Positions 2,293-58,395 of a stretch of 64,000 nt of DNA are shown here, piece by piece. The notes under the pieces were generated by a model. The model was not told where the DNA came from. It saw nothing but the letters and a program-made list of their open reading frames with translations, and made no database searches. Source of the stretch: Pandoraea faecigallinarum (GTDB lineage: Bacteria; Pseudomonadota; Gammaproteobacteria; Burkholderiales; Burkholderiaceae); NCBI RefSeq assembly GCF_001029105.3, contig NZ_CP011808.2:310001-374000 (forward strand), given 5' to 3'. The position numbers were made by a program, and so were the translations under genes. Within the stretch, counting starts at the first letter, position 1, and the number at the start of each line of letters is the position of its first letter.

Positions 2293-2324
2293 GCGCGATT
2301 AGACCGGAATGCCACTTGCCTGTT

Positions 2325-3178: not shown

Positions 3179-3236
3179 AGGTGTCCACCTCAATAGTGAA
3201 CTGAACCCCAGAAGTTGGACGGTGGTTGAACGAATT

Positions 3237-40717: not shown

Positions 40718-43237
40718 CTAACTGTTGTTATCCGCAGCCAACGCTGCGGCTGCCGCAGCTTCCTTGAGCAGACCCGCATCCTTGTAAGCGGTTTCAGCAA
40801 GCGTATACCACCCAGCGGCGTGCCTCTGCCAATCAGCACGCCTGCGCCCCTTAATGTCACCGTTTACCTCGCTATGACCAGCCTTCATAAAGGCCTCTGC
40901 GGAGCTCACAAGAGCTTCTTTAGCTCGGTCGGGCAGATCGGCCTTCGCGTAGGCGCGTGCGGCGAGCCCGTAGCGTCTTCCGGCCAAAGCGTCCATACCG
41001 TCCTGCGTGTCGGCTTGCGCGCCTTTCGAGAAGGCTTTCGCGGCAGACTCGTATCCGCCCGGCCCGCCCACCAACTCCCATTCCTGCCCAGCCATTTCGT
41101 AGATTACTGCCGCTTGGCTGAACCCACGAACTCCCTCGTGGACTTCTGCGGCGCTCTCAAGGGCTCGTGCAACCTGCGCGCGCTGACCAGGCACCCTCTC
41201 GAAGGCGGTCGCGGCGTTCATGTAGGTAAGGATAGCCTCTTCCTGCTGATCCGCCTCGTGTGAGTAGACTTCGGCGGCCTGCAGGTAGGCGAGTGCGGCT
41301 TGCGTGTGCTGGTCCGCGTCCCTATGAGCTATTGCGGCCTGCAGGTAGGCGGCTGCGGCCTGCGTGGGCAGCCCAGCCTCCTTGAAGGTCTTTGCAGCCT
41401 CCAGGTAACTTCTCGCGGCCAGAATGGAATCACGAGCCAACACGTGGGCTGTTGCGACCCTGTTGTGGACTTCTGCGGCGCTCTCGAGGGCCATCGTGAC
41501 TTGCGCGAGCAGACCACCCACCCTCGCATAAGCGTCTGCTGCGTTCCGGTAGGCGCGTACAGTCAGATTAGCCAGATCTACTAGATCGGCCAGATCGTGC
41601 CGTTCAGCCTTCATGTATTCCTTCGCGGCCTTCATAAAGGTTTTTGCGGCCTTTTCGTAGGCTGGTCCAGCCGGCGAATGTAACTCCATCTGCTGAAGAA
41701 AAAGAGCTTCTGCACCCTCGTCGTAACACTTTGCAGCGGCCCTGTGATCACCGACCTCCGAGTAGAGTTTCGCGGCCTGCGTAGAGAATTTTGCGGCCTC
41801 CGCGGGCGAAACCTTTTGGGTCTCCACAGCCTGCTTATAGACTTCTAAAGCGCTCCCGATAGCTTCTGTGACCTGCGCGTGCTTATCATCCACCTTCGCA
41901 AAGGCCTTTGCGACGTTCAAGTAGGCGCGTGCAGCCAGTTCGGGTTGTTCAGCCGCCATGTATTCCTTCACGGCCTGCGTATAGGATTCTGCAGCCTGCG
42001 TATAGAAATTTAGGGCCTCCTGGCGAGGTTGCAGACCAGCAAGGTGCGTAAGGGCTGCTGCGACCATCTCATAAGCGTCTCCGGCCAGCTTCTGCTGATT
42101 AAGTGTTTTATAAGCTTCTGCTGCCAGTCTGAAGTTGACTCTAGCCAGATCGTACCGTTTGCGCTCCAGGTAGTATTGTGCGGCCTCCCAGTAGGCTTTT
42201 GCCGCCTTCCCGCGGGCGGCTTTGCCCTGCTCGTGCTGTCCAGCGTCCATGTAAGCTTGCGCGTTGGCCTGGCGGGCTGCCGCGACCTGCTCATAGGCTT
42301 TTTCAGCTAGATCGCGCCGATGCCCTTTTACATAGGCTGTCACGACATCCCCGTAGGCCTGTGCAGCCAGATCGTACCGCCCCTCGTCTCTGTAGGCTTC
42401 CGCCACCTCCAGGTAGGCATCCCCGGCCTGCGTGTAAGCTTGTTGGGCTTGAGCGGGATAGTCCCCCTTCATGTAGGCTTGTGCGGCATTCATAAAGTTT
42501 TGTGCAGCCAGATCGTGCCGCCCCTCGTGTCTGTAGGCTTCCGCGACCTTCAGGTAGGCGTCCCCGCCCTGCTTGTAGGCTCGTGCAGCTAGATCGCGCC
42601 GATTAACATCCACACCCTCATAGGCTTCCGCGGCCGCGCCGAAGGCTTTTGCGGCCTGCCAATAGGCGGTTATGGCGCGCCGAACCTCACCGCGGTAGTG
42701 GTACACCTCCCCTTGTGCGGAGGCCACCTGTCCGGCCATGGAACACCTGTCTTGATCAGCAAGGAAGATTGAAAACTCGTTGAGGCCAGTGCCGGATTCA
42801 GTGGTTTGCAGGAGATCGGCTTTCGCCGTCTCCGTGAGCGATTCCCCCAGCAGGCTCGCGACCCTTTCGCGGCTTACTACCTGTGAGTCTTCGCGGCCTA
42901 TCAGGGTATCGTTATCGTGGTGCACCTTAAAATTCACATGAATAAAATCCGTCAGCTTCTTCACCGCGTCTTCGCTCTCTGCGTCGGCATGCTTATAAAG
43001 CGCTAGGATGCCGAAGGCGAGCAGACTCGTGGCTTTGCTTTTGTGATGAAAGGCACGGTCGAAGAAGCGATCCGCCCCTCCCATGTGGGTGATATCCCCA
43101 AGGGAAGCTCTGATCGATTCCGCACTATTGAAGTCAACGGACTTCAGCGCCCTGTTGGTGTACCCGTGACGTGGCTCGGACACGCATGAATTCCAATGGG
43201 CGTAGCGGCGAAACAAGCGAACGGGACTGTCAACCAT
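40718..43237 (-). CDS. Giant TPR/SNAP-like helical-repeat protein, family A
   Basis: The ATG at 43237 follows AAGGAG by seven bases and gives 839 residues. Residues 1-185 form the N-terminal region shared with the proteins at 9507 and 16434 (SLTETAKADLLQTTESGTGL, then FLADQDRCSMAGQVASAQGE). From about 190 to the end there is a continuous array of helical pairs rich in Ala, Tyr and Glu. Close duplications occur at about 48-residue spacing (GDAYLKVAEAYRHEGRHDLA and GDAYLEVAEAYRDEGRYDLA). The pattern matches TPR and alpha-SNAP proteins, which bind partner proteins through a superhelical groove. No catalytic motif, membrane segment or signal peptide is visible. IS256 and IS6 debris flank it. A role in host membrane traffic would be a guess from the fold. 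Confidence 0.75.
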   Translation of the reverse strand: MVDSPVRLFRRYAHWNSCVSEPRHGYTNRALKSVDFNSAESIRASLGDITHMGGADRFFDRAFHHKSKATSLLAFGILALYKHADAESEDAVKKLTDFIHVNFKVHHDNDTLIGREDSQVVSRERVASLLGESLTETAKADLLQTTESGTGLNEFSIFLADQDRCSMAGQVASAQGEVYHYRGEVRRAITAYWQAAKAFGAAAEAYEGVDVNRRDLAARAYKQGGDAYLKVAEAYRHEGRHDLAAQNFMNAAQAYMKGDYPAQAQQAYTQAGDAYLEVAEAYRDEGRYDLAAQAYGDVVTAYVKGHRRDLAEKAYEQVAAARQANAQAYMDAGQHEQGKAARGKAAKAYWEAAQYYLERKRYDLARVNFRLAAEAYKTLNQQKLAGDAYEMVAAALTHLAGLQPRQEALNFYTQAAESYTQAVKEYMAAEQPELAARAYLNVAKAFAKVDDKHAQVTEAIGSALEVYKQAVETQKVSPAEAAKFSTQAAKLYSEVGDHRAAAKCYDEGAEALFLQQMELHSPAGPAYEKAAKTFMKAAKEYMKAERHDLADLVDLANLTVRAYRNAADAYARVGGLLAQVTMALESAAEVHNRVATAHVLARDSILAARSYLEAAKTFKEAGLPTQAAAAYLQAAIAHRDADQHTQAALAYLQAAEVYSHEADQQEEAILTYMNAATAFERVPGQRAQVARALESAAEVHEGVRGFSQAAVIYEMAGQEWELVGGPGGYESAAKAFSKGAQADTQDGMDALAGRRYGLAARAYAKADLPDRAKEALVSSAEAFMKAGHSEVNGDIKGRRRADWQRHAAGWYTLAETAYKDAGLLKEAAAAAALAADNNS

Positions 43238-44283: not shown

Positions 44284-44451
44284 GTAACTCAGGACAGGCG
44301 GACACCGTTAGGTTGATGACACCGCATTACACCTGAACTCGCGAGGCGAGCGGTATTTCAGGGCTTTGTGCGGGTGGCGCTCATTGTAGTGTTCAAACGC
44401 GATAGCCAGACGCGAGAGCGCGGCTGGTGCGTCAGACTTGTCCATATAGGC
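44284..44451 (-). pseudogene. IS3-family orfB, C-terminal remnant
   Basis: The frame [20 protein letters not shown], then [20 protein letters not shown] and a stop near 44316 is the C-terminus of an IS3-type OrfB, followed by its outer end. It is cut at 44452 by the next IS3. Confidence 0.8.
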
Positions 44452-44514
44452 TGACCCTGCCTCGATTTCACGTACACCAAGAAGTGGTTAACTTCTGAGG
44501 TACGGAGAATCGAA

Positions 44515-44835
44515 ATGAAAGATGGGAAACTGCCCAAGCGGCAGTACACAGAGGAATTCAAGGCTGAAGCCGTCAGGCTTGCGGCGTCGGTGGGCGGGCT
44601 CGAGGCCGCACGGCGCCTTGGTGTGCCGGTGGCCACGGTGGGCAACTGGTCAAGGCGCGGCGTTGCTTCGTCCGGCCCGGGCGGTGGGCCAGCCCCTGGA
44701 GAGGCGCCGGCCCGTCGCCCCGTCAGTGAGCTGGAGGCGGAGAACAGTCGCCTTCGTAGGGAATTGGCCGAAGCGAAGCTGGATGTAGAAATCCTGCGAA
44801 AAGCGACGGCGTACTTCGCCAAAGTGTCGCGATGA
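44515..44835 (+). CDS. IS3-family OrfA
   Basis: The 106-residue protein begins MKDGKLPKRQYTEEFKAEAV and contains the helix-turn-helix GLEAARRLGVPVATVGNWSR, a Gly/Pro linker and a leucine zipper (LEAENSRLRRELAEAKLDVE). It overlaps orfB at GTGTCGCGATGAAG, so OrfB may be made both by frameshift fusion and by coupled initiation. It is intact. Confidence 0.92.
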   Translation: MKDGKLPKRQYTEEFKAEAVRLAASVGGLEAARRLGVPVATVGNWSRRGVASSGPGGGPAPGEAPARRPVSELEAENSRLRRELAEAKLDVEILRKATAYFAKVSR

Positions 44836-45695
44836 AGTACGCCTGGATCGACAAACATCGCGACCAGTACCCTGTCAACCGCTTGTGCCGCGTGTTGGGC
44901 GTATCGCGAAGCGGCTATTGCCAGTGGCGTGTGCGTCCACCGAGCTCCCGGGCGTTGGCCAATCAGGCCCTGGATGCCGAGGTGGCCGCCATCGACCAGG
45001 CCAGCCGCCGTAGCTACGGCCGGCCTCGAATCGTCCAGAGACTGCGCCAGCAGGGCCAGATGGTTGGCGCCGAGCGGGTTCGCAAGCGCCTACGGCGCCA
45101 AGGGCTGAGGCCGGTGTACAGAAGGCCGTTCGTGGTGAGCACCGACTCGGCACATCCTCTGCCGGTGGCCGCGAACCTCCTGGATCGGCGCTTCGATGGC
45201 TGGCAGCCCGATCAGGCCTGGGTGGCCGACATCACGTACGTGCCCACGGGCGAGGGCTGGTTGTACCTTGCGGCAGTGATGGACTTGGCTGGCCGGCGGA
45301 TCGTGGGCTGGTCAATGTCCGAAGCGATAGATGCGAGCTTGGTGTGCGCCGCTCTGAAATCGGCATGGTGGCAACGCAAGCCGGACAAGGGCCTGCTTGT
45401 GCATACCGATCGCGGGTCGCAATATGCCAGTGGGCGCTACCGAGCGCTGGCTGGCGACCTGGACATCACGATGTCCATGAGCAGGAGAGCCAACGCTTGG
45501 GACAACGCGCCGATGGAGAGCTTCTTCAAGACGCTGAAGGTCGAGCGCATCTACCAGGTACGCTACGAAACGCGGGCGCAGGCCAGGCTCGATATCGTGG
45601 ACTGGATCGAGGGTTGGGACAACCGCCAGCGCCTGCACTCGGCCAACGGCTTGCTTGCCCCTGTGGCGTGGGAGAATGCCTGCTTGGCTGCATGA
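44832..45695 (+). CDS. IS3-family transposase OrfB
   Basis: The 287-residue protein has the HTH_21 segment (RSYGRPRIVQRLRQQG) and the integrase core with D in WVADITYVPTGEGW, D in LLVHTDRGSQYASG and E in NAPMESFFKTLKVE. It ends ENACLAA close to the right IS end. It is intact; fragments of the same end occur at 25885-25943. Confidence 0.95.
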   Translation: MKYAWIDKHRDQYPVNRLCRVLGVSRSGYCQWRVRPPSSRALANQALDAEVAAIDQASRRSYGRPRIVQRLRQQGQMVGAERVRKRLRRQGLRPVYRRPFVVSTDSAHPLPVAANLLDRRFDGWQPDQAWVADITYVPTGEGWLYLAAVMDLAGRRIVGWSMSEAIDASLVCAALKSAWWQRKPDKGLLVHTDRGSQYASGRYRALAGDLDITMSMSRRANAWDNAPMESFFKTLKVERIYQVRYETRAQARLDIVDWIEGWDNRQRLHSANGLLAPVAWENACLAA

Positions 45696-45725
45696 CTTGA
45701 TGTACGTGGAAACGAGACAGGGTCA

Positions 45726-46310
45726 AAGGTGTTGCCTCGACCCATTGAACCTACCGTCGCTTTTGAGAGGATTTCCACATCGAGTTTCGCACTGGCTAAT
45801 TTGAAAGAGACTGGATTTGACCTGACCGACAGTGTCCGATAGTTCTGCGCTCGGGTTCGTTAACCACTTTTCCGTGCAGACTGTTTCTCGCCGTTCAAAA
45901 CCGGCCCAGGGTCGTCAGGATAGGACAACTCGAGCACCACACCGGACGGCAACACTTCGCACATTGTCCGTCAGGTCAAGTACCGGCTGATACAGCTAAT
46001 TCCTTGCGTAGCCGACTGACTTCCGCCTCCAGCTCCGATACGCCGGGCTTGGCGCGGCTCACAGAGGCTGCCGCGCCTGGCGTGGCCGCCCCGCCTTCGC
46101 GCTGCTTGCGCGCCCAGTTTCCGAGGGTCGCCATCGGCACCCCCAAACGGCGTGCCGCCTCATTGTGTCCCACCGAATTTGCCAGTCTTGCCGCCTCCAC
46201 CCGGAACTCATCCGTGTAGCGACGATTCGGTACCCCTTTTTCGCCCATACCCACCTCCGTTCAACAGATTATCCAACTTCTCTGCTGTACATCGTTTCGA
46301 GGCAAGGTCA
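45726..46310 (-). pseudogene. IS3 orfA fragment carrying an IS30 relic and a 193-bp insertion
   Basis: OrfA starts at 46248 (MGEKGVPNRRYTDEFRVEAA). It is interrupted by the 193-bp element at 45802-45994, resumes as LASAKLDVEILSKA and is cut at 45754 by 29 bases of an IS30 end (45726-45754). The outer IS3 end GGCAAGGTCA is at 46310. OrfB is absent. The related copy at 54081 shows the uninterrupted orfA sequence at the 193-bp insertion point. Confidence 0.9.
45802..45994. mobile_element. 193-bp non-autonomous element, copy A
   Basis: The element begins TGAAAGAGACTGG and ends CGGCTGATACA. Its 38-base ends are imperfect inverted repeats sharing TTGACCTGAC-GACA-TGT. The 7-bp direct repeat GCTAATT flanks it (45795-45801 and 45995-46001). 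The empty site is seen in the homologous IS3 orfA at 54320-54350. It encodes no transposase; a 34-codon frame (MCEVLPSGVVLELSYPDDPG onward) lies on the minus strand at 45964-45860. Copy B at 52040-52232 differs at about four positions. Confidence 0.88.
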
Positions 46311-46316
46311 AGCCTA

Positions 46317-47142
46317 GGGTCTGTTTACATTTGTTGAAACGTGTTTACATCTCGTCTTTTGCGCGAGCGAGACAAGATGATTCGAACGTTGTTGAGCGAC
46401 GAGGTATGGGCGCGAATCAAATCGGTATTGCCGGGCAAGGAAGGCGATCCTGGGCGAACGGCGGTCGACAACCGCTGGTTTGTCGAAGCCGTCCTGTGGA
46501 TCGGCCGAACCGGCTGCCCGTGGCGTGATTTGCCCAAGGCCTTCGGGCGGTGGCACACGGTGTACATGCGCTTCTCGCGCTGGCGGCGCAATGGTGTCTG
46601 GGAGCGCGTGGTGCACGCCCTAGCCGACGAAACGGAAATCAGATGTGTGCTGATCGACTCAACCATTGTGCGTGCGCACCAACATTCAGCCGGTGCTCGA
46701 AAAAAAGCGGCCCGCAAGCACTCGGCCGCTCCCGCGGAGGACTGAGAACCAAGCTGCACCTGGCCGTCGATGAAGCCGGACGTCCTCTGCGAATGATCGT
46801 TACCGAGGGACAAGTTTCCGATATTTCGCGCGCGAATGAAATGGTTGAGCACTTGCGCACCGGTGCAGTCATCGCTGACAAGGGTTACGACTCGGATGCC
46901 TTCGTCAACACTATCCGGGCTACCCGTGCGAAGGCCGTTATCCCGCCGCACTCGAATAGAAAGGCCAAGCGTCGGTACAGCCGAAAGCTGTACCGAACTC
47001 GCAACATCGTCGAACGATTTTTCGGTCGTATCAAACATTTTCGTCGTGTCGCCACTCGCTATGACAAGCTCGCACAGAACTATCTCGCCTTCGCTTCCCT
47101 TGCCTGCGCGTTCGGGCCGCTGGTGAGAATGTGAACAGAACC
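46317..47142 (+). mobile_element. IS5-family element (IS427-like), copy 2
   Basis: Same ends and length (826 bp) as the copy at 5202-6027, flanked by TA (46315-46316 and 47143-47144). The few base differences show it is a separate copy. It sits between an IS3 end and an IS6 remnant. Confidence 0.94.
46377..47134 (+). CDS. IS5-family (IS427-like) transposase, programmed frameshift
   Basis: The first frame runs from the ATG at 46377 to 46745, and the second frame continues to 47134 after a seven-A slippery run at 46700-46706. The catalytic Asp, Asp and Glu lie in LIDSTIVRAHQH, IADKGYDSDAF and NIVERFFGRIKHFR. Small differences from copy 1 include AHSNRKAKRR-type changes near the C-terminus (PPHSNRKAKRRYSRKL). 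No stop is added, so it appears intact. Confidence 0.9.
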
Positions 47143-47144
47143 TA

Positions 47145-47560
47145 AATTGACAACGCCGCAGCGGGAGTGACGCCTACGATAACGCCGTGGCGGAAACGAT
47201 CCACGGCGCGTCCACGGCGGAAGTGCTCCCTCCCATTGGCCCGGGGCGTCATCGGCGGGCCGGTGGAACCGGCAATCCTCGAATGGGGGAGACGGGGTCA
47301 ACGATCGTCGGCCGAGGTGGTCAACTTGCCGCGATGCGAGGACGCCCATGCATGCGTCTACCGGGGCGCAAAAAGCAGGAGAGGGCATTGGAGTCACGTT
47401 GGCGCATGCACGCCATGCAGCAAAGCGCACCACGAGCGGCTGGCGATAAAGGCCTGCGCGCCCCGCATGGCGTTGGCGTGCGAAGTGCTGTCGGATCGGC
47501 CCGAAGCATGACCGGGCGGCCGGCGTGCGCGCAAGCTTGCGAATCCGGGCAATCATGACG
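47145..47560 (-). pseudogene. IS6-family transposase, C-terminal remnant
   Basis: The frame CFGPIRQHFARQRHAGRAGL, then YRQPLVVRFAAWRACANVT corresponds to FGPIRQHFALKRHLLRATL, then YRNQLAVCFAAWREFTHVT of the IS6 at 20598. The end GGCGTTGTCAATT lies at 47145-47157, where the IS5 copy 2 is inserted. The upstream part is lost at about 47560. Confidence 0.8.
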
Positions 47561-47816
47561 TTCGCGCCCTGGTGAATTGAGCGCCGCGCAAACGGCGGGC
47601 GTTCAGGGTCGGAGTCCGGCGGAGGGTGATCACGTTCGCCGAACTACGTAATCAACGAAATCAGCGAAAACAGGGTTGCAAAATCTGTCCAAAAACCGCA
47701 TTCTTGAGGCCCTTTAAAAGCGCATTTCGGCGGCATGATGAGAGGACTCATGATGCCAATCATCCGCGGCCCGGCCACGCCGCTCCGAGATACGCAGTCA
47801 CACGCCGCAACCGATC

Positions 47817-49700
47817 ATGAGAGTGAGTCGCCCTTGGCTGCCCACGGGATCTTTGGACCGGGCACTAAATCATCAAGTCTCATTTGACGAATTAAGCCAC
47901 GCCAGCGTTTGTGAGGGAATAGATCGCCACTTTTTTTCCTCGCTCGGCGCTACGGCTGCCCCGATCCGGCTGCGCGTGAATGAGGTGTGGGCGGACGCGG
48001 CGCACGGCGCCGTCGCGCTTAACGCGCCGCCCCGCACCGGCAGCGAACTTCTCGAGCAGGTCAGCGCGACAATTAGCGCAGCCTTCGTGGGCGCGGACGT
48101 GCCGGGAAACATCGCCCACGTACAGGCTTTTGTGATCGCGAGCCAGCTGGCATGCGAGGAGTTCTTGAATGTGGACCGCCTATTGAGCCTGCCAAATGTC
48201 GAGCAAATTGCGTATCAGCAAGTCCTTGACGTCAGCGTCCGGGGCACCGAGGTTTGCTTTCACAAGACGACGACCTACAAGGCGAAGGGGAGTGAGACAC
48301 TGGCGCAGGTCGTCGACCTGGGGATGAAGATATGGACCGAGCGCAGTTACCTTGGTTTTGGCGACAGTTGGCGGCTCCACGCCCAGGTGACCAATGCGGC
48401 GGTGCGTCTGAGCGGCGCACTTGAGCGCGACGTTCTGCTTGGCGCCGACGAGACGCTCACCCCCGCGGGGCGGCATTTCAAGGTGCCGATGGCGCCGAAC
48501 GGTTTCTGGGGATGTATTACACAGGTATTTTCGCGGCTCGCCGGCCTGCTTGGCAAGCGGGGCATTGAGGTGGTCGTGGGCAATGCGGAAAATCTAGCCA
48601 GTGTGAAAGCCGTTACGCGCCCAGGGCAGCTCGAACTGAATTACCTGGATGAGGATTTCGATCGATCGGCCTTACTCGTGTGCGCAGAGCAAGACTACGG
48701 CTGGTGGAACAATGGCGTGGCGGAATATCGAAGCGTTGGCGGTCAGGTCATGCGCGGCAATTATCTCCTGGACGACGAGTTACAATTTAAAGCCTATATG
48801 GCGAACGGGGAGGCGAAAGCCGATCGGCAGGCCGGCCTTTTGCTAGCGTCGAAAAAACTGACCGTGGGGGATGATCTTCGTGCCGGGGGCCGCTTTGCGC
48901 TTGCGTCGCATACCAATCGCTATGCCGACGAGTACCTCACTCGGACCGTTCTCGCTGCCCAATCGACGGCGACGCTGTTCAAAGACCTCGTAGACGCGCT
49001 CGGGGGCGATCTGTTTCGGTACAGCATGACGAGCCATGATTTCATCACGCTGGACGCGGAGAACATCATGTCGCGACATGACGCGGAGTTGCTCGAGTAT
49101 GCCCGGGGGTTAAGCCGCCTGGAGCGCGCGCAAACGGCCGAGGGATCGGCGATGGCGGCCGAGCTGGCGGAATTAAGGCGGCGCGTTGACGCGTTGGCGC
49201 GTGCGCACGACCTATCGGGGCTGAGTGAGCCCGAGCAGATAACGCAGGTGAAAAAACGCTTGGTCGTGGCGGTCATCGATCGGATTTCGGAGGCGTTTCC
49301 CGGTGATCCGGGGGGGGCCTTTCAAGTGCTCACAACGCTCGCCTATGCAGAGAAAGCCTCGCACGTCGTCATTCAGGGCGACGGTGGTCCTCAGTTTTTG
49401 AACGGACGCGATGAGACGCGCCAAATCTCCATCTTCATCAAAAGCCCCGCAGGGGCGAATTTTGCAGGTAAGGCTTTTATCAAGTTTTACTCGTCGGTAA
49501 AAACGCTCGGTGAGCGCGGCGCAGTTCGATTCGGCCGCACGACCTTGGCAAAGGACAGGTTTAACGAAGCGAAGATGTCCTCCGGTTCGCTTTGGTGCGT
49601 GGACGACAACGATGAGCCCATCTTGGTGAATGCCTGGTACAACGCAACATTCGTGCTTAACGTTCCGGCAACGCCACCGCTTAGCCCGTGGCCAGTGTGA
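47817..49700 (+). CDS. Large family-B protein with one C-terminal module
   Basis: The open frame from the ATG at 47817 has 627 residues. Residues 35-260 match the N-terminal domain at 26253-29369: DRHFFSSLGA, then VIASQLACEEFLNVDRLL, then VCFHKTTTYKAKG, then GLLGKRGIEVVVG. Residues about 355-617 are one copy of the C-terminal module (FITLDAENIMSRHDAELLEY, then KRLVVAVIDRISEAFPGD, then VVIQGDGGPQFLNG). The ATG at 47817 has a poor ribosome site. An ATG pair at 47750, after GAGAGG, opens a different frame (MMPIIRGPATPLRDTQSHAA) resembling the start of the paralog (MLKPTVGPTPRG), so the true N-terminus has probably been lost by a frameshift near 47820-47880. No signal peptide, membrane segment or known enzyme motif is seen. 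Confidence 0.68.
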   Translation: MRVSRPWLPTGSLDRALNHQVSFDELSHASVCEGIDRHFFSSLGATAAPIRLRVNEVWADAAHGAVALNAPPRTGSELLEQVSATISAAFVGADVPGNIAHVQAFVIASQLACEEFLNVDRLLSLPNVEQIAYQQVLDVSVRGTEVCFHKTTTYKAKGSETLAQVVDLGMKIWTERSYLGFGDSWRLHAQVTNAAVRLSGALERDVLLGADETLTPAGRHFKVPMAPNGFWGCITQVFSRLAGLLGKRGIEVVVGNAENLASVKAVTRPGQLELNYLDEDFDRSALLVCAEQDYGWWNNGVAEYRSVGGQVMRGNYLLDDELQFKAYMANGEAKADRQAGLLLASKKLTVGDDLRAGGRFALASHTNRYADEYLTRTVLAAQSTATLFKDLVDALGGDLFRYSMTSHDFITLDAENIMSRHDAELLEYARGLSRLERAQTAEGSAMAAELAELRRRVDALARAHDLSGLSEPEQITQVKKRLVVAVIDRISEAFPGDPGGAFQVLTTLAYAEKASHVVIQGDGGPQFLNGRDETRQISIFIKSPAGANFAGKAFIKFYSSVKTLGERGAVRFGRTTLAKDRFNEAKMSSGSLWCVDDNDEPILVNAWYNATFVLNVPATPPLSPWPV

Positions 49701-49732
49701 CGCAGTATGTCGTCCCGCGATGGTCGCCATTG

Positions 49733-49998
49733 TCACGCCCCTGCGGCCGGCTGAGGCCGGTCGGAGAAAATGGAAGCCAACGTTTCGTAAAATCGAGAAA
49801 CGGAGGCATGGGTGAATCGAATTCCAAGAGCGGTCTATACGAAGGAGCTTCGCGACGAAGCGGTCAAGTTGGCGTTGGCCGAAGGTGTGGGGGTATCGGA
49901 AGCTTCCCGGCGCTTGTCGATCCCAATCAAGACGCTGGCAAACTGGATGCGCGCGGCGAAGGCCGGTAAGCTGAAAGATGTCGGCCGGCACCAGAGGC
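49733..49998 (+). pseudogene. IS3-family orfA, N-terminal fragment
   Basis: The frame MNRIPRAVYTKELRDEAVKL (start at 49812), then EASRRLSIPIKTLANWMRAA and KLKDVGRHQR, is the first half of an IS3-type OrfA. It ends where the IS6 element begins at 49999. No orfB remains. Confidence 0.85.
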
Positions 49999-50222
49999 GG
50001 TATTGTCAGGTTGTTTGGTTGACGATGCGCCAATAGGGAGTTGCAGAAAACGATGCTCGTTATGCCGCCATACGGGCGGAGCAAGCCCATTGCCAGGCGG
50101 CGAAGGCCTGGGTGTGTACCGCGCGTTTATGCTCGGCATTGCGGTGATAGCGGCACGCCATGAATAGGTTCGAAACCTGACCGTGGATCGAGGTGAAGCG
50201 CTGCAATTGGCGTGCTGACTTA

Positions 50223-51127
50223 GAAGCTCTAACAAAATGATTTCCTGAGATGGCGCCAGCAGATGATGCAACCAGCCATTTTCAGGAAGGCTTCGTGAAT
50301 GATTGCGAGGCGCTCGAAGCGAACTCGCAATCGCTTGAAGTTGTGCAGCCACGCGATCGTTCGCTCGACAACCCAACGCGTCTTGCCAAGACCGCTGCCG
50401 TGAGGCTCGCCGCGGCGAGCAATCTCGGTGGCGATGCCGACGGCGTGCAGGGGCTTGCGGTACTTGTCGTGGTCGTAGCCGCGATCACCCTGAACGATGT
50501 GCGGTTTAGACAAGGGGGCGACCGCGCTTGCCTCGAATCGGAGGAATCGCCTCGATCAGTGGCAGCAGTTGGGTAATGTCGTTGCGGTTGGCGCCCGTGA
50601 GTATCAGCGACAGTGGAATGCCTTGGGCGTCGGTCAGGACGTGGTGCTTTGAACCTGGTCGCGCGCGATCTGTGGGGTTAGGTCCTGTTTTTGACCCGAC
50701 CCCACTGCCCGGGTAGAAGAGGAATCGACGACTACACGAGACCAGTCGATGCGATCGGCCGCACGGAGCTTGGCCAGAAGTACCTCGTGCAGACGATCCC
50801 AGACGCCAGCCTTCTGCCAGGCATGTAGCCGTCGCCAGCAACTCATGCCTGAGCCGCAGCCCATTTCCTGCGGCAGCATTTCCCAAGGGATGCCGGATTG
50901 CAGAACGAACAGGATGCCCGTGAGCACGGCACGATCGTCCAGCGGCTTGCGCCCGGGATAGCGGGCGCGCCGAGGCTTCGGTGGCGGCAGCAGTGGCTGG
51001 ATGATTGCCCACAGTTCGTCGTCGAGTATTGGTTTGGCCATGTCCTTTGCGCAGCGATGACTGCGCAAAGGTTAACAAAAATCACTTTGAGTTAACAGCC
51101 CCCGTAAACTCATTTTGTTAGAGATTC
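50223..51127 (-). mobile_element. IS5-family element (IS427-like, second type), copy 2
   Basis: Ends and TTA duplication (50220-50222 and 51128-51130) are as in the copy at 36530-37433. It is one base longer because a run of four G has become five near 50514-50518. Confidence 0.93.
50229..51041 (-). pseudogene. IS5-family transposase with a frameshift in its second frame
   Basis: The first frame (MAKPILDDELWAIIQPLLPP, ATG at 51041) has the Trp that is a stop in copy 1 and is open through GMSCWRRLHAWQKAGVWDRL. The second frame breaks at KRGRPL because of the extra G near 50515; SKPHIVQGDRGYDHDKYRKP follows in another frame to 50229. The two copies therefore carry different inactivating changes. 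Confidence 0.88.
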
Positions 51128-51745
51128 TTAAAGCGGCGCATCACCTTCTCCCGCACCCGCGTAGGCTGATGCGAATTCTCCGCACGGTTGTTCAACCCTT
51201 TATGCTGGCGGTGTTCGGCGCTTAGCCCGAGCTCGTGGTGGGCCGCCGCATAGCTGCGCAGTTTGTCTGTGACGATCACGCGCGCACCGCCATGGCGCTT
51301 GAGCAGGCGGCGCATGAGCCGTTTGGCGGCGGCCGTGTCGCGACGGCTTTGCACCAGCACCTCAAGCAATGCGCCGTGTTCGTCGACCGCCCGCCACAGC
51401 CAGTGCTTTTTGCCGGGGATCGTCACGACCACTTCGTCAAGATGCCACTTTTCGCCGCGCCCCGCGGACCTCGCTCGAATACGCCCCGCGATGGCCAGAC
51501 CGAACTTCGTCGCCCAGCACCGTACCGTTTCGTACGTGAGTTCGATCCCGTGGGCGGCCAGCATCTCCTCAACCATGCGCAGGCTCGGCGGGAATCGGTA
51601 ATATAGCCACACTGCGTAGCTGATGACGTCGGGCGGAAAACGGTAGCCTATGAATGAGATCACGACCTCGCTCGAGCGCGCGGGGCTGACTGAGGTTTTT
51701 TTCATGTCGCATTCTATCCTCCATCGCTAACAACCTGACAATACC

Positions 51746-52745
51746 GTGGGCACTGATCGAACCTTTGCTGCCGACGCCAACACCGCGACGCCAGAAATAT
51801 CCAGGGCGGCTACCGGTTTCAAACCGAGCTGCACTGAACGGCATCCTGTTCGTGTTCAAGACCGGGATACGCTGGTGCGACCTGTCGACCAAGTTGGGAT
51901 TCGGTTCGGGGCCAACCTGCTGGAGGCGCTTGTGCGACTGGCAGAAAGCCGGCGTATGGATCAGGTTGCACCAGCTACTGCTGGACAAGTTACGCGAGGC
52001 GGGCGAGCTCGATTTCTCACGAGCAGCCGTCGATTCATCTGAAAGAGACTGGATTTGACCTGACCGACAGTGTCCGATAGTTCTGCGCTCAGGCTCGTTA
52101 ACCACTTTTCCGTGCAGACTGTTTCTCGCCGTTCAAAACCGGCCCGGGGTCGTCGGGATAGGACAACTCGAGCACCACACCGGACGGCAACACTTCGCAC
52201 ATTGTCCGTCAGGTCAAGTACCGGCTGATACAATTCATCGTCGGTGCGAGCCGTTGGGGCGGGCGAAAAACGGACCCGAACCCCACGGATCGCTCGCGAC
52301 CAGGTTCCAAGCATCACATCCTCGTCGATGCAAATGGCATCCCCGTCAGGGCAATCCTGACCGGCGCGAACCGCAACGACGTCACCCAGTTGCTGCCGCT
52401 CGTCGACGCGATCCCACCCATTCGCGGCGTGCGCGGCCAACCGCTTCTGAAGCCCAAAGTCATCTACGCAGACCGTGGCTACGATTCCGGGCCGCATCGT
52501 CAGCGGCTTCGCGAGCGCGGCATCAAACCGGTGATCGCCAGGCGCCGGACAGAACACGGCAGTGGCTTGGGCAAATTCCGCTGGGTTGTCGAACGTACTC
52601 ATGCGTGGCTTCACAACTCTCGCCGTCTTCGCATTCGCTTCGAACGTCGGGCTGACATTCACGAGGCATTCCTCAAACTCGGCTGTTCTCTCGTCTGCTG
52701 GAACATCTTCCGGCGCGCTGAGCCGTCTTTTTGAAACAGTCTCTT
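51746..52745 (+). pseudogene. IS5-family element (IS427-like) truncated and carrying the 193-bp insertion
   Basis: The first frame begins without its start (WALIEPLLPTPTPRRQKYPG) at the IS6 end and runs to SRAAVDSS at about 52036, where the 193-bp element is inserted. The second frame continues (GGRKTDPNPTDRSRPGSKHH, then VIYADRGYDSGPHRQRLRER, then RWVVERTHAWLHNSRRLRIR) to 52734. The right IS end AAACAGTCTCTTA is near 52733-52745. The catalytic Asp of VDSS is split by the insertion. Confidence 0.88.
52040..52232. mobile_element. 193-bp non-autonomous element, copy B
   Basis: Same ends and length as copy A at 45802-45994, flanked by the 7-bp direct repeat ATTCATC (52033-52039 and 52233-52239). 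It interrupts an IS5 transposase gene. About four substitutions separate the copies (for example GCTCAGGCTCG against GCTCGGGTTCG). Confidence 0.88.
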
Positions 52746-52898
52746 AACGAGCACTGGTTCACGACGCTCGCGCACGCTCGGGCTGTCATCGCGGCATGGC
52801 GTCAGGACTATAACGAGCAAAGGCCACACAGCGCACTGAACTACCTTGCGCCGTCAGAGTTTGGGGTTCCACGCCGGAACCCCGGAAGATTTCGTTAG
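52745..52898 (+). pseudogene. IS407-type orfB, C-terminal remnant
   Basis: The frame LNEHWFTTLAHARAVIAAWR, then YNEQRPHSALNYLAPSEFGV and a TAG near 52897 is the C-terminus of an IS407-type OrfB. It directly follows the IS5 end. Confidence 0.85.
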
Positions 52899-53206
52899 TG
52901 CGCTGGATGCATCGGCTGTGCCACCAGGCGCACGCCCAAGGCAGCGCAAACGCGGCTGATCGTCTCGAAGCGCGGTTCGCTGCCGGGCCGAAGCGCTTTG
53001 TACAGCGCTTCGCGCGCGATGCCAGAATCCTTCGCCACCTGCGACATCCCTCGTGCACGGGCAATGTCACCGATAGCAGCGGCCAGCAATGCCGGATCGT
53101 TCTCTTCAAGAACGGTTGTCAGGTACGCCGCCACTTCCTCTTCGCTGTTCAGATATTCGGCCGCATCGAACTCGGAGAGTTCGGAAACCTTAATTCTCTT
53201 GGTCAT
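52895..53206 (-). CDS. HigA-like antitoxin of a type II toxin-antitoxin pair
   Basis: The ATG at 53206 follows GGAGG by seven bases and gives 103 residues. The N-terminal half (FDAAEYLNSEEEVAAYLTTV) is the toxin-contacting part of this antidote family. The C-terminal half is an XRE helix-turn-helix (ARARGMSQVAKDSGIAREAL, then YKALRPGSEPRFETISRV). It neutralises the toxin encoded just upstream and probably represses the pair. A second ATG six bases upstream is possible. It appears intact. Confidence 0.9.
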   Translation of the reverse strand: MTKRIKVSELSEFDAAEYLNSEEEVAAYLTTVLEENDPALLAAAIGDIARARGMSQVAKDSGIAREALYKALRPGSEPRFETISRVCAALGVRLVAQPMHPAH

Positions 53207-53208
53207 AA

Positions 53209-53508
53209 TCAATCCTCCAGGGATTTCGCCAACGCAATGGCTCGCCGAATGTCGGCCTGCTGGGTGGACTTGTCACCGCCTCCCAGCATCACGATCACCA
53301 GCTCGCCGCGCTGAACGTAGTACAAGCGCCAGCCTGGCCCGAAATGTTCGCGCATCTCGAACACGCCTTCGCCTACAGGCGCCACGTCGCCCAAGTTGCC
53401 AAGCTGGGCCTTGCGCAGCCGCTTAACGAGGCGCTGCCGTGTCAGGCCGTTCTTCAGGCCTTGGAGCCAATCGGAGAACTCGCCGAGTTGTTTCACCGTA
53501 TAGGTCAT
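53209..53508 (-). CDS. RelE/HigB-like toxin of a type II toxin-antitoxin pair
   Basis: The 99-residue protein has the RelE-superfamily addiction-killer pattern: FSDWLQGLKNGLTRQRLVKR, then GVFEMREHFGPGWRLYYVQR, then LVIVMLGGGDKSTQQADIRR. Members are ribosome-dependent mRNA interferases. It is the first gene of the pair and ends two bases before the antitoxin start. A palindrome at 53518-53533 lies upstream. It appears intact. Confidence 0.9.
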   Translation of the reverse strand: MTYTVKQLGEFSDWLQGLKNGLTRQRLVKRLRKAQLGNLGDVAPVGEGVFEMREHFGPGWRLYYVQRGELVIVMLGGGDKSTQQADIRRAIALAKSLED

Positions 53509-53517
53509 AAATCAACT

Positions 53518-53533
53518 GTAATCGATTGATTAC
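53518..53533. promoter_or_regulatory. Palindrome upstream of the toxin-antitoxin pair, likely operator
   Basis: GTAATCGATTGATTAC is a perfect 6-bp inverted repeat around GATT, ten bases before the toxin ATG. Antitoxins of this type usually bind such sites to repress their own operon. The assignment rests on position and symmetry only. Confidence 0.5.
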
Positions 53534-53628
53534 GCAATGTCAAACCGATGCGGACGGCTTCGGCCGCTTATTGTCGGATAACAAGTGGTTTGCGACATTG
53601 AGGTCGGACGGAATTCGTGGAGGCCAAC

Positions 53629-53960
53629 GGGTTAGGCAGCGATGTGATTCAAATAGAAGCGCTGCGTGAACGCGACAGGCGATTGGTAGTTCAGACGCGC
53701 CTGCGTGCGCTGCTGATTGTAGAAGATTTCGATGTATTCGCTAATCGCCAGGCGCGCCTGCTCGCGCGTGGCGAAGCGTTGATGATTGACCAGTTCATTC
53801 TTCAGCGTTCCTCAGAAGGATTCGATGGGCGCGTTGTCGTAGCAGTTGCCACGGCGGCTCATCGACGCGCGCATGTCGAACCGGCCGTTGAGTGCTTGAT
53901 AAGCCAGCGCACAATATTTGGGCGGATTCAACCGGTCGTCGCAACACCATTGATCGACGA
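53629..53960 (-). pseudogene. IS3-family orfB, C-terminal remnant with a nonsense mutation
   Basis: The frame MRASMSRRGNCYDNAPIESF, stop, GTLKNELVNHQRFATREQAR, then YNQQRTQARLNYQSPVAFTQ ends near 53629. The in-frame TGA at about 53820 replaces the Trp after ESF, next to the catalytic Glu. The N-terminal part is not present. Confidence 0.85.
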
Positions 53961-54373
53961 GGTGTTGCGTGAGAAGAAGTGCAAAGCAGGTATATCGGTT
54001 GTCAGGGCGAGCAGCGATTGACCTTGCCTCGAAACGACGTACAGCAGAGAAGTTGGATAATCTGTTGAACGGAGGTGGGTATGGGCGAAAAAGGGGTACC
54101 GAATCGTCGCTACACGGATGAGTTCCGGGTGGAGGCGGCAAGACTGGCAAATTCGGTGGGACACAATGAGGCGGCACGCCGTTTGGGGGTGCCGATGGCG
54201 ACCCTCGGAAACTGGGCGCGCAAGCAGCGCGAAGGCGGGGCGGCCACGCCAGGCGCGGCAGCCTCTGTGAGCCGCGCCAAGCCCGGCGTATCGGAGCTGG
54301 AGGCGGAAGTCAGTCGGCTACGCAAGGAATTAGCCAGTGCGAAACTCGATGTGGAAATCCTCTCAAAAGCGAC

Positions 54374-55600
54374 GGTAGGTTCAATGGGTCGCTGCAACAG
54401 CCTCGCGTAGTTTATCGGCCGGAGACATGAAGCCCAATGTTTTTCTGGGCCTTTCATTGAGCCGCGCTGCAATTTTGTTCAGCTCCGCCTGCGAGTATTG
54501 ATCAAGTTGCGTACCGTGGGGCAAGTACTGACGCAGGAGTCGGTTCGTGTTTTCGTTGGTGCCGCGTTGCCAAGGACTTCGCGGGTCGCAGAAGTAGACT
54601 TTCACATCCGTGGCGATCGTGAAGTCTTTGTGGTTCGCCAGTTCCATTCCTCGGTCCCAGGTGAGCGACTTGCGTAGATGCTGCGGCAACCGCTTAACCT
54701 CGCGCTTCAGGCCCGCCACGACGCTCAACGTGTCCTTCCCCTTTACCTTGACGATGATGGCGAACCTCGATCGCCGCTCGACCAAAGTGGCGACATGAGT
54801 ATTGTTGGCGCCACTGACGAGATCTCCTTCCCAATGCCCCGGTACCGCACGGTCGGCTGCTTCAGGTGGTCGCTCGTGAATCGAAACCGCGTCAGCAATC
54901 TTATTGCGAGCTCCCTTCGTGCTGGAAAAGCGTGAGTGACGCATCTTCCGTTGGGTCCGCAGGTGATACTGCAGCTCCTTCTTGAGAACGCCGCGCGCTT
55001 GCACGAACAGGCTGCGATAGATCGTCTCGTGAGACACGCGCATCGCCTCGTCATCGGCATATCGGTTCTTAAGCCAACCGCTCACTTGCTCCGGAGACCA
55101 TTCGCGGTAGAGCTTGCGCTCGACCGCATAGCGCAAGCGCCGGTTCTGCTCCAGGAGGCAGCGTTTGGGACGCAGAGCAGCCTGCAAGGCTCGCTCTTGC
55201 GCTTCCAGAGCTCGATAGTGGCCTGTTCCGCCGTTACGCGCAATCTCACGGGACATTGTTGAAGGCGCGCGGTTCAACTGGCGGGCAATCGCTCGAACTG
55301 AAAGCCCAGCCGAGACGCCCCGCGAGATCTCTTCACGTTCGCTCAAGCTCAATGCCCGCAACGACCGCTTACGAACACTAGGGGTGTACCCTCCGCATAG
55401 TCGGATCACGCCGTAGATGGAGCCGGCAGGCTTGCCTAACGCCTTGCCGATGCCAAGAAACGATTCACCTGCTCGCCACCGTCGCCAAACCTCTGACTTG
55501 CCTTCCGGCGGCAAACCTGGCCGTCCCATTTGTGCCATTCCTCAACCCTCCCTCATTCGATATTAATAGGAAGGTGTTGCCTCGACCCATTGAACCTACC
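54374..55600 (-). mobile_element. IS30-family element, copy 1
   Basis: The inverted ends GGTAGGTTCAATGGGTCG at 54374 and, as complement, ending at 55600 bound 1227 bp. The duplication is AC (54372-54373 and 55601-55602). A relic of another IS30 occupies the same position of the related orfA at 45754, in the opposite orientation. Confidence 0.92.
54381..55538 (-). CDS. IS30-family transposase
   Basis: The 385-residue protein starts MAQMGRPGLPPEGKSEVWRR. It has two helix-turn-helix regions, the second being VSAGLSVRAIARQLNRAPST, then SREIARNGG. The DDE core shows WEGDLVSGANNTHVATLVER, TWDRGMELANHKDFTIATDV and the catalytic Glu in QRGTNENTNRLLRQYLP. The stop codon lies within the terminal repeat. 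It is intact. Confidence 0.95.
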   Translation of the reverse strand: MAQMGRPGLPPEGKSEVWRRWRAGESFLGIGKALGKPAGSIYGVIRLCGGYTPSVRKRSLRALSLSEREEISRGVSAGLSVRAIARQLNRAPSTMSREIARNGGTGHYRALEAQERALQAALRPKRCLLEQNRRLRYAVERKLYREWSPEQVSGWLKNRYADDEAMRVSHETIYRSLFVQARGVLKKELQYHLRTQRKMRHSRFSSTKGARNKIADAVSIHERPPEAADRAVPGHWEGDLVSGANNTHVATLVERRSRFAIIVKVKGKDTLSVVAGLKREVKRLPQHLRKSLTWDRGMELANHKDFTIATDVKVYFCDPRSPWQRGTNENTNRLLRQYLPHGTQLDQYSQAELNKIAARLNERPRKTLGFMSPADKLREAVAATH

Positions 55601-55626
55601 ACGGCATACTTCGCGAAGGGGTCGCG

Positions 55627-56490
55627 GTGAAGTATGCATGGATCGACGCTCACCGCGACCAATACGACGTAAGCCGTCTGTGCCGAGTGCTGAGGGTCTC
55701 GCGCAGTGGCTACTGCCAATGGCGGGTACGGAGGCCAAGCGAGCGGCGGCAGCCGCAGGCGGCCTTCGATGACGAAGTCGCCCGTCTGCACGCGCAGAAC
55801 CGCGGCTGCTACGGCCGTCCAAGACTGGTCAAGGCGCTGGCCGCCCAGGGCATGAAGACGAGCGCAGAGCGCGTGCGCCGCAGCTTGATACGTCAAGGTT
55901 TGCGGCCGGCATACCGGCGGGCATGGCAGACGACCACAGACTCGGCTCACCGCTTGCCGGTGGCGCCGAACCTGCTGGCGCGACGCTTCGATGGATGGGG
56001 GCCGAATCAGGCGTGGGTCGCGGATATCACGTACCTAGCGACGGACGAAGGCTGGTTGTATTTGGCGGCCATTCTGGACCTGGGAAGCCGGCGCATCGTT
56101 GGGTGGTCGATGTCCGAGCGCATCGATGCCAAGCTCGTGTGTGCGGCGCTGCGCTCTGCGCACGGGCAACGTCGGCCGCCTCGGGGCTTGATTGTACATA
56201 GCGATCGCGGCGTGCAATACGCGAGTTGGTCGCACCGCGCGCTTGCTCAGGGGTACGGGATGGTCATGTCGATGAGCCGGCGTGCCAATGCTTGGGATAA
56301 TGCGCCGATGGAGAGCTTCTTCAAGACGCTGAAAGTCGAGCAGACGTCGCGATGCCGCTACGAAACACGAGCCCAAGCAAGACTGGATGTGATGAACTGG
56401 ATCGAAGGCTTTTACAATCGTCAACGCATCCATTCATCGATCGGGTACCGCACGTCGTGTGATTACGAAACGATGCTACAAGCGGCGTGA
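55627..56490 (+). CDS. IS3-family transposase OrfB
   Basis: The 287-residue frame starts with GTG at 55627, overlapping the end of orfA. It contains GCYGRPRLVKALAAQGMKTS and the integrase core: D in WVADITYLATDEGW, D in LIVHSDRGVQYASW and E in NAPMESFFKTLKVEQ. It is complete, but OrfA is split by IS30, so the fused transposase cannot be made from this copy. Confidence 0.93.
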   Translation: MKYAWIDAHRDQYDVSRLCRVLRVSRSGYCQWRVRRPSERRQPQAAFDDEVARLHAQNRGCYGRPRLVKALAAQGMKTSAERVRRSLIRQGLRPAYRRAWQTTTDSAHRLPVAPNLLARRFDGWGPNQAWVADITYLATDEGWLYLAAILDLGSRRIVGWSMSERIDAKLVCAALRSAHGQRRPPRGLIVHSDRGVQYASWSHRALAQGYGMVMSMSRRANAWDNAPMESFFKTLKVEQTSRCRYETRAQARLDVMNWIEGFYNRQRIHSSIGYRTSCDYETMLQAA

Positions 56491-56520
56491 GTTGCTGTAC
56501 GTGAAAACGAGGCAAGGTCA

Positions 56521-57476
56521 GATCTCGCGGGGCGTCTCGGCTGGGCTTTCAGTTCGAGCGATTGCCCGCCAGTTGAACCGCGCGCCTTCAACAATGTCCC
56601 GTGAGATTGCGCGTAACGGCGGAACAGGCCACTATCGAGCTCTGGAAGCGCAAGAGCGAGCCTTGCAGGCTGCTCTGCGACCCAAACGCTGCCTCCTGGA
56701 GCAGAACCGGCGCTTGCGCTATGCGGTCGAGCGCAAGCTCTACCGCGAATGGTCTCCGGAGCAAGTGAGCGGTTGGCTTAAGAACCGATATGCCGATGAC
56801 GAGGCGATGCGCGTGTCTCACGAGACGATCTATCGCAGCCTGTTCGTGCAAGCGCGCGGCGTTCTCAAGAAGGAGCTGCAGTATCACCTGCGGACCCAAC
56901 GGAAGATGCGTCACTCACGCTTTTCCAGCACGAAGGGAGCTCGCAATAAGATTGCTGACGCGGTTTCGATTCACGAGCGACCACCTGAAGCAGCCGACCG
57001 TGCGGTACCGAGGCATTGGGAAGGAGATCTCGTCAGTGGCGCCAACAATACTCATGTCGCCACTTTGGTCGAGCGGCGATCGAGGTTCGCCATCATCGTC
57101 AAGGTAAAGGGGAAGGACACGTTGAGCGTCGTGGCGGGCCTGAAGCGCGAGGTTAAGCGGTTGCCGCAGCATCTACGCAAGTCGCTCACCTGGGACCGAG
57201 GAATGGAACTGGCGAACCACAAAGACTTCACGATCGCCACGGATGTGAAAGTCTACTTCTGCGACCCGCGAAGTCCTTGGCAACGCGGCACCAACGAAAA
57301 CACGAACCGACTCCTGCGTCAGTACTTACCCCACGGTACGCAACTTGATCAATACTCGCAGGCGGAGCTGAACAAAATTGCAGCGCGGCTCAATGAAAGG
57401 CCCAGAAAAACATTGGGCTTCATGTCTCCGGCCGATAAACTACGCGAGGCTGTTGCAGCGACCCATTGAACCTACC
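56521..57476 (+). pseudogene. IS30-family transposase, 5'-truncated second copy
   Basis: The match to the IS30 at 54381-55538 starts abruptly inside the gene (ISRGVSAGLSVRAIARQLNR) at the IS3 end and continues to the C-terminus at 57469 and the terminal repeat at 57476. Only two or so residues differ (for example AVPRHWEGD for AVPGHWEGD). The first 70 residues are missing. Confidence 0.92.
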
Positions 57477-58395
57477 ATGCCTTGGTTCTAGCAAAGAAGT
57501 TGGCTCGGCAGAAATAGCCAAAATAGTGCTTGAACTGAGGCAGGAATTCCCCTTGACCGATCTTCTCCAGGCTGCGAGGTTGCCACGCAGTACGTACTAC
57601 TATCGGATCAAAACGCTGGCCACCCCAGACCGGCATGGTGGGCTCAAGGCGAAGATTCAGGCGGTCTATGCTGCACATCGCGGCTTGTATGGCTATCGTC
57701 GCATCACCTTGACTATCCGCAGTGATGGCGAGCTGGTCAATCACAAGAAGGTGCAGCGCCTCATGAACGAATTGGGAATCAGGTCGAGGGTGCGCAGGAA
57801 GAAGTTCCGGTCGTACCAGGGCGAAATCGGCGAGGCCGCGCCAAACCTGCTCAATCGTGAATTCACCGCGTCGGGCCCAAACGAGAAGTGGGTTACCGAT
57901 GTGACCGAGTTCCGGGTCGCGGGGAAAAAGCTGTACCTTTCTCCGGTCATGGACCTCTACAATGGGGAAATTGTTGCCTACGAGTCGAGCTATCGCCCCG
58001 ACTTCCCGATGGTCATGGGCATGCTCAGGAAAGCTGTCAAGAAACGCGGAAATGCGGCTACACCGATGCTTCATTCAGACCAGGGTTGGCACTATCGCAT
58101 GCAACCGTACCGAGCGGCACTGGCGCGCTATGGAATGAAGCAAAGCATGTCGAGAAAAGGAAATCGCTTCGATAACGCGGCCATGGAGAGCTTCTTTGGC
58201 ACTCTGAAGGCCGAGTACTTCCATCTCTCGGACTTCGAAGACGTCGACGCATTACGAGTAGGTCTGAAGGGCTACATCGACTACTACAACCGGCGCCGCA
58301 TCAAATCGAAACTTGGTGGACTGAGTCCCGTGGAATATCGAATGCGAGCGGGAAAAAACTAACGCTTCAACGTCCAACTCTCGGGGTTCAGTTCA
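57477..58395 (+). pseudogene. IS150-like IS3 element, 5'-truncated, with orfB
   Basis: The orfB frame is complete from a GTG at 57526 (VLELRQEFPLTDLLQAARLP) to 58362. Its catalytic residues lie in WVTDVTEFRVAGKK, LHSDQGWHYRM and NAAMESFFGTLKAE. It resembles orfB at 3237-4067. OrfA is missing because the IS30 end lies at 57476. The right IS end with CGGGGTTCAGTTCA finishes at 58395. Confidence 0.9.

Follow-up and report, generated by a model that had tools for sequence, protein, structure and literature searches.

A mobile 193-bp element in the window

The 64,000-nucleotide stretch of DNA analyzed here (the window; Pandoraea faecigallinarum contig NZ_CP011808.2, positions 310,001 to 374,000 of the forward strand) contains two copies, A and B, of a 193-bp element that is a genuine, recently mobile miniature inverted-repeat transposable element (MITE). 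Both lie in a dense nest of transposase-like frames (window 44358-58362), several of which are interrupted and which we take to be of the IS3, IS5 and IS30 types (IS, insertion sequence). The first-pass annotation of this DNA had described near-identical copies with imperfect 38-base inverted ends and perfect 7-bp duplications, and all of this held: the two copies are both 193 bp long and differ at four positions, the direct repeats are perfect on both (GCTAATT and ATTCATC, respectively), and by hand count the inverted ends match at 28 of their first 38 positions. From the TG...CA tips inwards, a poorly matched stretch is followed by TTGACCTGAC(C/G)GACA(G/A)TGT(C/G)CGA. A different replicon of this genome carries a third copy, C, which is identical to A and bracketed by CTTAACG (G000:C1:1018657-1018849, minus strand). 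Copy A interrupts what is presumably an IS3-type orfA, the frame at 54075-54410 being, as we read it, the intact homologue, while copies B and C presumably interrupt IS5-type and IS3-type transposase genes, respectively.

Table 1. Positions of the element copies, their target duplications and associated features in the window
Feature	Position	Strand	Basis or remark
Copy A of the 193-bp element (TG...CA)	45802..45994	+	sequence
Copy B of the 193-bp element, four differences from A	52040..52232	+	sequence
Left target duplication of copy A, GCTAATT	45795..45801	.	sequence
Right target duplication of copy A, GCTAATT	45995..46001	.	sequence
Left target duplication of copy B, ATTCATC	52033..52039	.	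sequence
Right target duplication of copy B, ATTCATC	52233..52239	.	sequence
Left end of copy A	45802..45841	+	with the same end of B, ranks 1-2 of 127,920 positions, E1 profile
Right end of copy A	45955..45994	-	with the same end of B, ranks 3-4, E1 profile
Empty site matching copy A (single GCTAATT)	54328..54334	-	inside uninterrupted frame 54075-54410 (+)
34-codon frame (stop included)	45860..45964	-	not counted as a functional part

The empty site that had been proposed for copy A is borne out by an ungapped alignment of 382 bp at 99.2% identity, in which the homologous frame carries one GCTAATT. Copy B has its empty site on a plasmid of P. oxalativorans (L026:188-881; an ungapped alignment of 694 bp at 96.8% identity), with a single ATTCATG, one mismatch away from the repeat ATTCATC; for copy C none was found among the loci collected. 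With three differing flanks, three differing repeats and two empty sites, transposition is the sole reasonable account, and because copy C has its own repeats on another replicon, the alternative of one duplicated block with the same flanks, which had been raised at the outset, does not apply. The several independent insertions likewise uphold the view that this is a mobile unit without a transposase, as do its anatomical features, namely a length of 193 bp with a longest closed minus-strand frame of 34 codons in A, terminal inverted repeats, and a target duplication with empty sites. The claim that fell is that the 34-codon frame is conserved. Only A, B, C and the copy of G031, which are 98-100% alike, have it intact; in G018a and G009 a frameshift shortens it to 22 codons, and no frame starts from that ATG in G131 and G018b. 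Its conservation in A and B is just that of near-identical copies.

Relatives in Pandoraea and other Burkholderiaceae

Beyond the third copy in the genome itself, further copies were found in Pandoraea and in neighboring Burkholderiaceae. The element has a match in four of the 32 genomes of the genus Pandoraea, and two plasmids, pPV15 of P. vervacti and pPO70-1 of P. oxalativorans, carry copies that are 97-98% identical. Searches with an inner inverted-repeat motif, followed by a covariance model, enlarged the 193-bp class to eight copies in five genomes: G000 (three copies), G031, G018 (two), G009 and G131, the latter from another genus. Five of the eight are flanked by perfect 7-bp repeats (GCTAATT, ATTCATC, CTTAACG, CGTCATT and AATCAGA), one by a perfect 8-bp repeat (GTTAGACC) and two by repeats with one mismatch (CGTCATG/CGTCATT for G018b and GCTGACG/GCCGACG for G009), so that the rule of a 7-bp duplication stands for most copies and fails for the one with 8 bp. 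The length stays at 191-193 bp though identity drops to 48-62% in pairs with G131 or G018b, and the interiors of G131, G009 and G018b align to that of A better than all 500 shuffles.

Other genera of the family harbor a sister class. It includes five copies of 225-226 bp, four with perfect repeats and one with one mismatch, and three further copies of 225-227 bp, one with a perfect repeat and two with one mismatch; the count leaves out L041, L050 and L056, which by species and repeat were taken as copies already counted. The perfect repeats are CCTCATT, CGTAATC, CTTTATG, CATCAAC and GTTAAGT. In addition, Paraburkholderia plasmids carry two copies, one of 226 bp with a perfect repeat (CCTTATG) and one of 204 bp whose repeat has one mismatch. 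Both classes, which are thus spread over several replicons and genera, retain TG...CA at their ends, and their duplications are mostly 7 bp long and fit NNTNANN. Members have a near-constant length (191-193 bp, and 225-227 bp but for the one 204-bp copy) despite strong divergence.

Of the 398 family genomes, search R1 picked out 13, in several of which (G082, G155 and G332) the matches are just short or partial. When 13 genomes were searched for end-like 20-mers, two extra matches, in G251 and G314, were put down to chance, since neither has a TG tip where one would be expected; a partial match of 34 bp in G179 was by eye not a full element, and L007/L022 (G003), which matched the inner motif only, were dropped. 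The 193 bp had no match in a phage collection. The 193-bp copy of G131 (L028:4810-5002) lies about 75 bp from an apparent CRISPR array (L028:5077-5726) of 11 repeats of the ATCTCCGCGCACGCGGAGGAACC type, with a period of 61-62.

Larger elements with related ends

A pattern drawn from the right ends of the MITEs was used to search 84,980 species genomes and viral contigs. It matched 17 stretches in the species genomes (16 from Burkholderia, Paraburkholderia or Pandoraea and one from a Gemmatimonadetes metagenome-assembled genome) and two in the viral contigs. Four of these 19 stretches hold complete, non-miniature elements, in which 1.2-2.4 kb of mostly coding DNA lies between this end and a second end of another sequence, TGCGTAAGTCAAGACCTGATC...; the 7-bp repeats outside the two ends agree (in one of the four with a mismatch). 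The two ends of such cargo elements, here named E1 (first) and E2 (second), are asymmetric and conserved over about 60 and 90 bp. An E1 30-mer with at most three mismatches was found at 30 places in 24 of the 65 genomes of the genus Burkholderia, and a reversed control at none; the E2 and E1 profiles match 53 and 63 of the 398 family genomes, respectively (E at most 0.01), some of these being cross-matches to the other end. When the searches are united (hand list, E down to 0.01), 50 of the 65 Burkholderia genomes have at least one E1 or E2 end.

Pairs were sought within stretches of 12-20 kb, and a scripted comparison of the collected loci yielded 45 facing E1/E2 pairs of 0.8-14.9 kb. Identical 7-bp flanks are present in 17 pairs and flanks with at most one mismatch in 24, against means of 0.47 and 0.97 when partners are shuffled. 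Since 13 of the 45 pairs trained the profiles and some of these 13 were recognized by their repeats, the fair figure is that of the 32 pairs outside the training, of which by hand count nine are perfect and 12 have at most one mismatch. One complete element of 1376 bp, with CGTTACC repeats, lies in a metagenomic viral contig (L237). L271, which is among the pairs with at least two mismatches, has an 8-bp repeat, GATAGAGG, on both sides, and a 52.7-kb candidate pair in G352 showed no matching repeats in the pair listing, which covered 38 kb of it.

Of the 17 perfect repeats of cargo elements, 16 carry T at position 3 and 15 carry A at position 5; in a hand list of 30 repeats, with the MITEs in and the misses out, 27 have this T and 29 this A. 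The E1 profile, trained exclusively on cargo elements, gives the four MITE ends ranks 1-4 of 127,920 window positions on both strands, with scores of 21.4, 21.4, 12.6 and 12.6 and the next position at 6.8. The E2 profile, whose source was the second cargo ends found via their repeats and mutual likeness, places them at ranks 2-5 of 127,920. This is good, not conclusive, evidence that the ends of the MITEs and of the cargo elements would form one superfamily. It is shown statistically that larger Burkholderiaceae elements share this end class and the duplication rule and carry varied cargo. The suggestion that the 193-bp unit might be part of a known longer element was right in that longer elements with the same end class exist, and wrong in that the ones found carry cargo but no own transposase and are not a known IS or transposon.

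Cargo genes

In the 24 best-delimited elements, 93 open reading frames (ORFs) have 120 codons or more; 52 of them were searched against Pfam, and some against PADLOC. Defense-like cargo was found in seven of the 24: a Septu-like pair in L124 (PtuA/PDC-M01A, 652 bits, with an HNH partner, 337 bits), TmtA in L132 (1406 bits), a CBASS cyclase (433 bits) with a phospholipase effector (557 bits) and a DACNG/DACNH sensor in L129, RelA_SpoT and GmrSD_N in L211, HEPN_AbiU2 in L189, and Mrr_cat in L179 and in L193/L167, the latter scarcely over the cut-off. A NACHT match in L123 is under the cut-off and only suggestive. Other elements had no defense match and carry a transporter, a gamma-glutamyltranspeptidase and a peptidase (L116), an SDR protein and a hydrolase (L190), an RND-type efflux system, a TonB receptor and a GST (L204), an alpha/beta hydrolase (L058), or GGDEF and response regulator proteins (L206); L268 had no defense match either, and in several elements there are only cargo proteins without any family match. 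That the cargo set is rich in defense genes is an impression.

Burkholderia phage KS9, whose host is B. pyrrocinia, has its AAA-ATPase and HNH genes (gp02 and gp03) between a degenerate E1-like stretch, recognized by eye, and an E2 end (L081, about 1516-3870). The arrangement looks like a degenerate relative and suggests a defense-like cassette that entered a phage genome.

Search for the mobilizing enzyme

Among the ORFs of the 24 elements compared with Pfam, no transposase common to the cargo elements was found, and a mutual comparison of the ORFs of 18 elements gave just three matching pairs, of which none is a shared helper. Transposases do occur within the 24 elements: L129 has an rve fragment and an IS110-type protein, L267 a DDE transposase, and L134 a relative of the one in L267. 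We read all four as belonging to inserted ISs, those of L134 and L267 being presumably IS1182-like. IS1182-like transposases are found in or beside several elements, and they were rejected as the helper, as was an origin of the 193-bp element as an IS1182-family derivative, because the copies inspected have by eye their own, different ends of the GTGTGAAAAC type. An autonomous partner with MITE ends was found neither among those matches of searches R1, R2 and R3 in the 398 family genomes whose surroundings were read, nor among the matches of the end pattern in species-genome and viral contigs.

Two recombinases were also considered. A serine resolvase of about 194 amino acids, with a res-like upstream region, is encoded in or beside seven loci (L128, L181, L182, L183, L190, L195 and L209), and could point to replicative movement of some members. 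In L182 and L183 the resolvase is joined to a truncated E1 end, and L181, L182, L183, L190 and L209 share neighboring genes, apparently those of a genomic island; it was for these reasons not taken as the helper. A protein of about 209 amino acids, read as a tyrosine recombinase, is encoded in two elements with diverged ends (L268:6086-6708, in pieces, and L272:9266-9892), and is not shared by the other loci compared.

Origin and mobilization

We consider it likely that the 193-bp unit is a non-autonomous MITE that has transposed at least three times in the lineage of this strain, and separately in related strains, by means of a transposase supplied in trans. The element of the window is probably the minimal, empty representative of a group of transposase-less cassettes found in the Burkholderiaceae. 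A broader reading, which we put forward with reserve and which may well turn out otherwise, is that the family harbors cassette-like transposons no member of which encodes the mobilizing enzyme, and that one outside helper moves both the empty forms (193/226 bp) and the cargo forms (from one gene to a 15-kb set), defense and metabolic genes being interchangeable passengers between the same two asymmetric ends. Such an economy would resemble that of integron cassettes, but would work by transposition. In the account that we consider likely, the same transposase, or a closely related one, would act on empty and loaded elements alike; it would be of the DDE type, cutting with a stagger of 7 bp, and would be encoded elsewhere, on another element, on a plasmid, or in an element whose ends are too diverged for the profiles or which is longer than the stretches read. 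The length of 191-193 bp could come from descent from one 193-bp ancestor, perhaps kept by the spacing that end pairing requires.

Several observations weigh against this account. No transposase with these ends was found, and mobilization in trans is unproven; Pfam covers 52 of the 93 cargo ORFs, and surroundings were read for part of the profile matches. Among 70 whole stretches, flanks included (L115-L144 and L175-L214), the widest transposase-like cluster, of the rve type, occurs in eight. The likeness to E1 is partly circular, because the first cargo elements were gathered with the MITE-end pattern, and for the first four elements the candidate second ends were ordered, if not filtered, by their likeness to a MITE end; with the E2 profile, one unrelated position outscores the MITE ends (14.7 versus 11.2). 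As for the pairs, 21 of the 45 have at least two flank mismatches and are decayed, base-shifted or chance pairings, and L141 and L143, which both count among the 45, are one insertion in two related genomes. Finally, a near-constant length is unusual for old MITEs.

It could also be that the 193-bp element is an ordinary MITE, an internal deletion derivative of one IS or transposon, and that its likeness to the cargo ends is convergent or reflects a common superfamily end motif. MITEs usually arise as such internally deleted derivatives, the E1 likeness was partly selected by the search pattern, and the lack of an autonomous copy among the R1, R2 and R3 matches read fits as well. Nevertheless, a 7-bp duplication with a T-N-A center is common to the MITEs and the cargo elements, and the E2 profile puts the MITE ends near the top of all window positions, so that we find this account unlikely, if worth keeping in mind. 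More improbable still, and disfavored, is a Tn7-like system (TnsAB-TnsC-TniQ) as the partner. Such a module stands beside one element in Burkholderia sp. TSV86, where a 930-amino-acid protein (rve and Mu-transpos_C, TnsAB-like as read), a TniB/TnsC-like ATPase and TniQ lie less than 1 kb from an E2 end (L131:1192-6555); Tn7-like transposons do carry varied cargo including defense genes, according to the accessible text of PMC8649781. However, no E-type end was found in the 1.2 kb of contig that lies beyond the module. TnsAB-like relatives were found in four of the 14 genomes compared, among them TSV86 itself and G314 (26% identity); the four Pandoraea genomes that have the MITE gave none, and neither did G131, G319 and G146. 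Mu-transpos_C (PF09299) is present in 32 of the 65 Burkholderia genomes and is not associated with the elements, since 23 of the 50 element-bearing genomes have no match (Fisher p = 0.24). The TnsAB module was rejected as the helper. Moreover, Tn7 duplicates 5 bp of its target.

The unit might, lastly, be a functional RNA or a regulatory repeat spread by recombination, with the 7-bp repeats being incidental. The retention of length and interior down to 48-62% identity would suit a functional sequence, and a long hairpin fold is possible, whereas the covariation term is unfavorable (+1.64), no covarying base pairs are supported, Rfam gives no match, and the DNA fold z-scores are just -1.02, -0.33 and -1.64. 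In addition, target duplications differ between most sites, and the empty sites effectively refute this as the main account, so that we give it hardly any credence and rejected a structured RNA. To return to the cassette-like transposons with an outside helper, the central point raised is that of the helper enzyme, and of whether empty and cargo forms are both served by it. If the reading is confirmed, the ends would serve as an easy probe for mobile cargo which, there being no transposase to find, may escape programs that look for ISs and transposons; several cargoes are phage-defense systems bounded to the base, so that unknown cargo between the same ends would be a source of candidate defense genes.

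Comparison with known systems

Bacterial MITEs are short, have no transposase, and have inverted ends, a target duplication and several copies, and a full-length parent with the same ends is usually known. The 193-bp element is like them in all the former respects; in contrast, no full-length parent was found here, and the length is near-constant across genera. MITEs have been described in Pseudomonas syringae (as seen in the accessible part of PMC3189936). The cargo elements are closer to the mobile insertion cassettes, such as MIC231 of Bacillus cereus and mic-qnrD, in which, in the portion of PMC3913671 available to us, a passenger gene lies within inverted repeats, without a transposase gene and with a target duplication, and where MIC231A1 is cited as having been moved in trans by the IS231A transposase. 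The elements found here likewise have passengers bracketed by inverted ends, no transposase of their own and a duplication, on the strength of 24 of the 45 pairs and of the 52 Pfam-scanned ORFs. By anatomy they belong with these cassettes, and their way of working would resemble that of the MIC231 type. They differ from mic-qnrD, which in the same portion of that paper duplicates 2 bp and has 24-bp repeats, in their 7-bp NNTNANN duplication and asymmetric ends of about 60 and 90 bp, and from the cassettes in general in having many cargoes of up to 15 kb, including phage-defense genes, and a helper that is putative.

As far as the available text of PMC8649781 goes, Tn7-like transposons share with the present elements a varied cargo enriched in defense genes and, in some cases, the use of resolvases, and differ in carrying their own tns genes. 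None were seen in the elements here, the TnsB/TnsC/TniQ module being found only beside one element and never inside, and a classification as Tn7-like transposons was rejected. The IS2-like composite element of B. thailandensis, in what could be consulted of PMC6350997, is similar in being mobile cargo in Burkholderia, and dissimilar in being a composite of about 210 kb with IS2-like transposases at its ends and 5-bp repeats. The kind of element described here is thus already known, as MITE and mobile insertion cassette, and it is the family and its range of cargo that are apparently new. This agrees with the first-pass annotation, which had called the element apparently undescribed: we recognized no description of the family in the literature searched, from which subscription papers, preprints and ISfinder were excluded.

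Other features of the window

A tRNA scan of the window found none. Adjoining the nest of insertion sequences, on the minus strand at 40718-43237, lies a gene for a repeat-rich protein of 839 amino acids that is TPR-like by eye.

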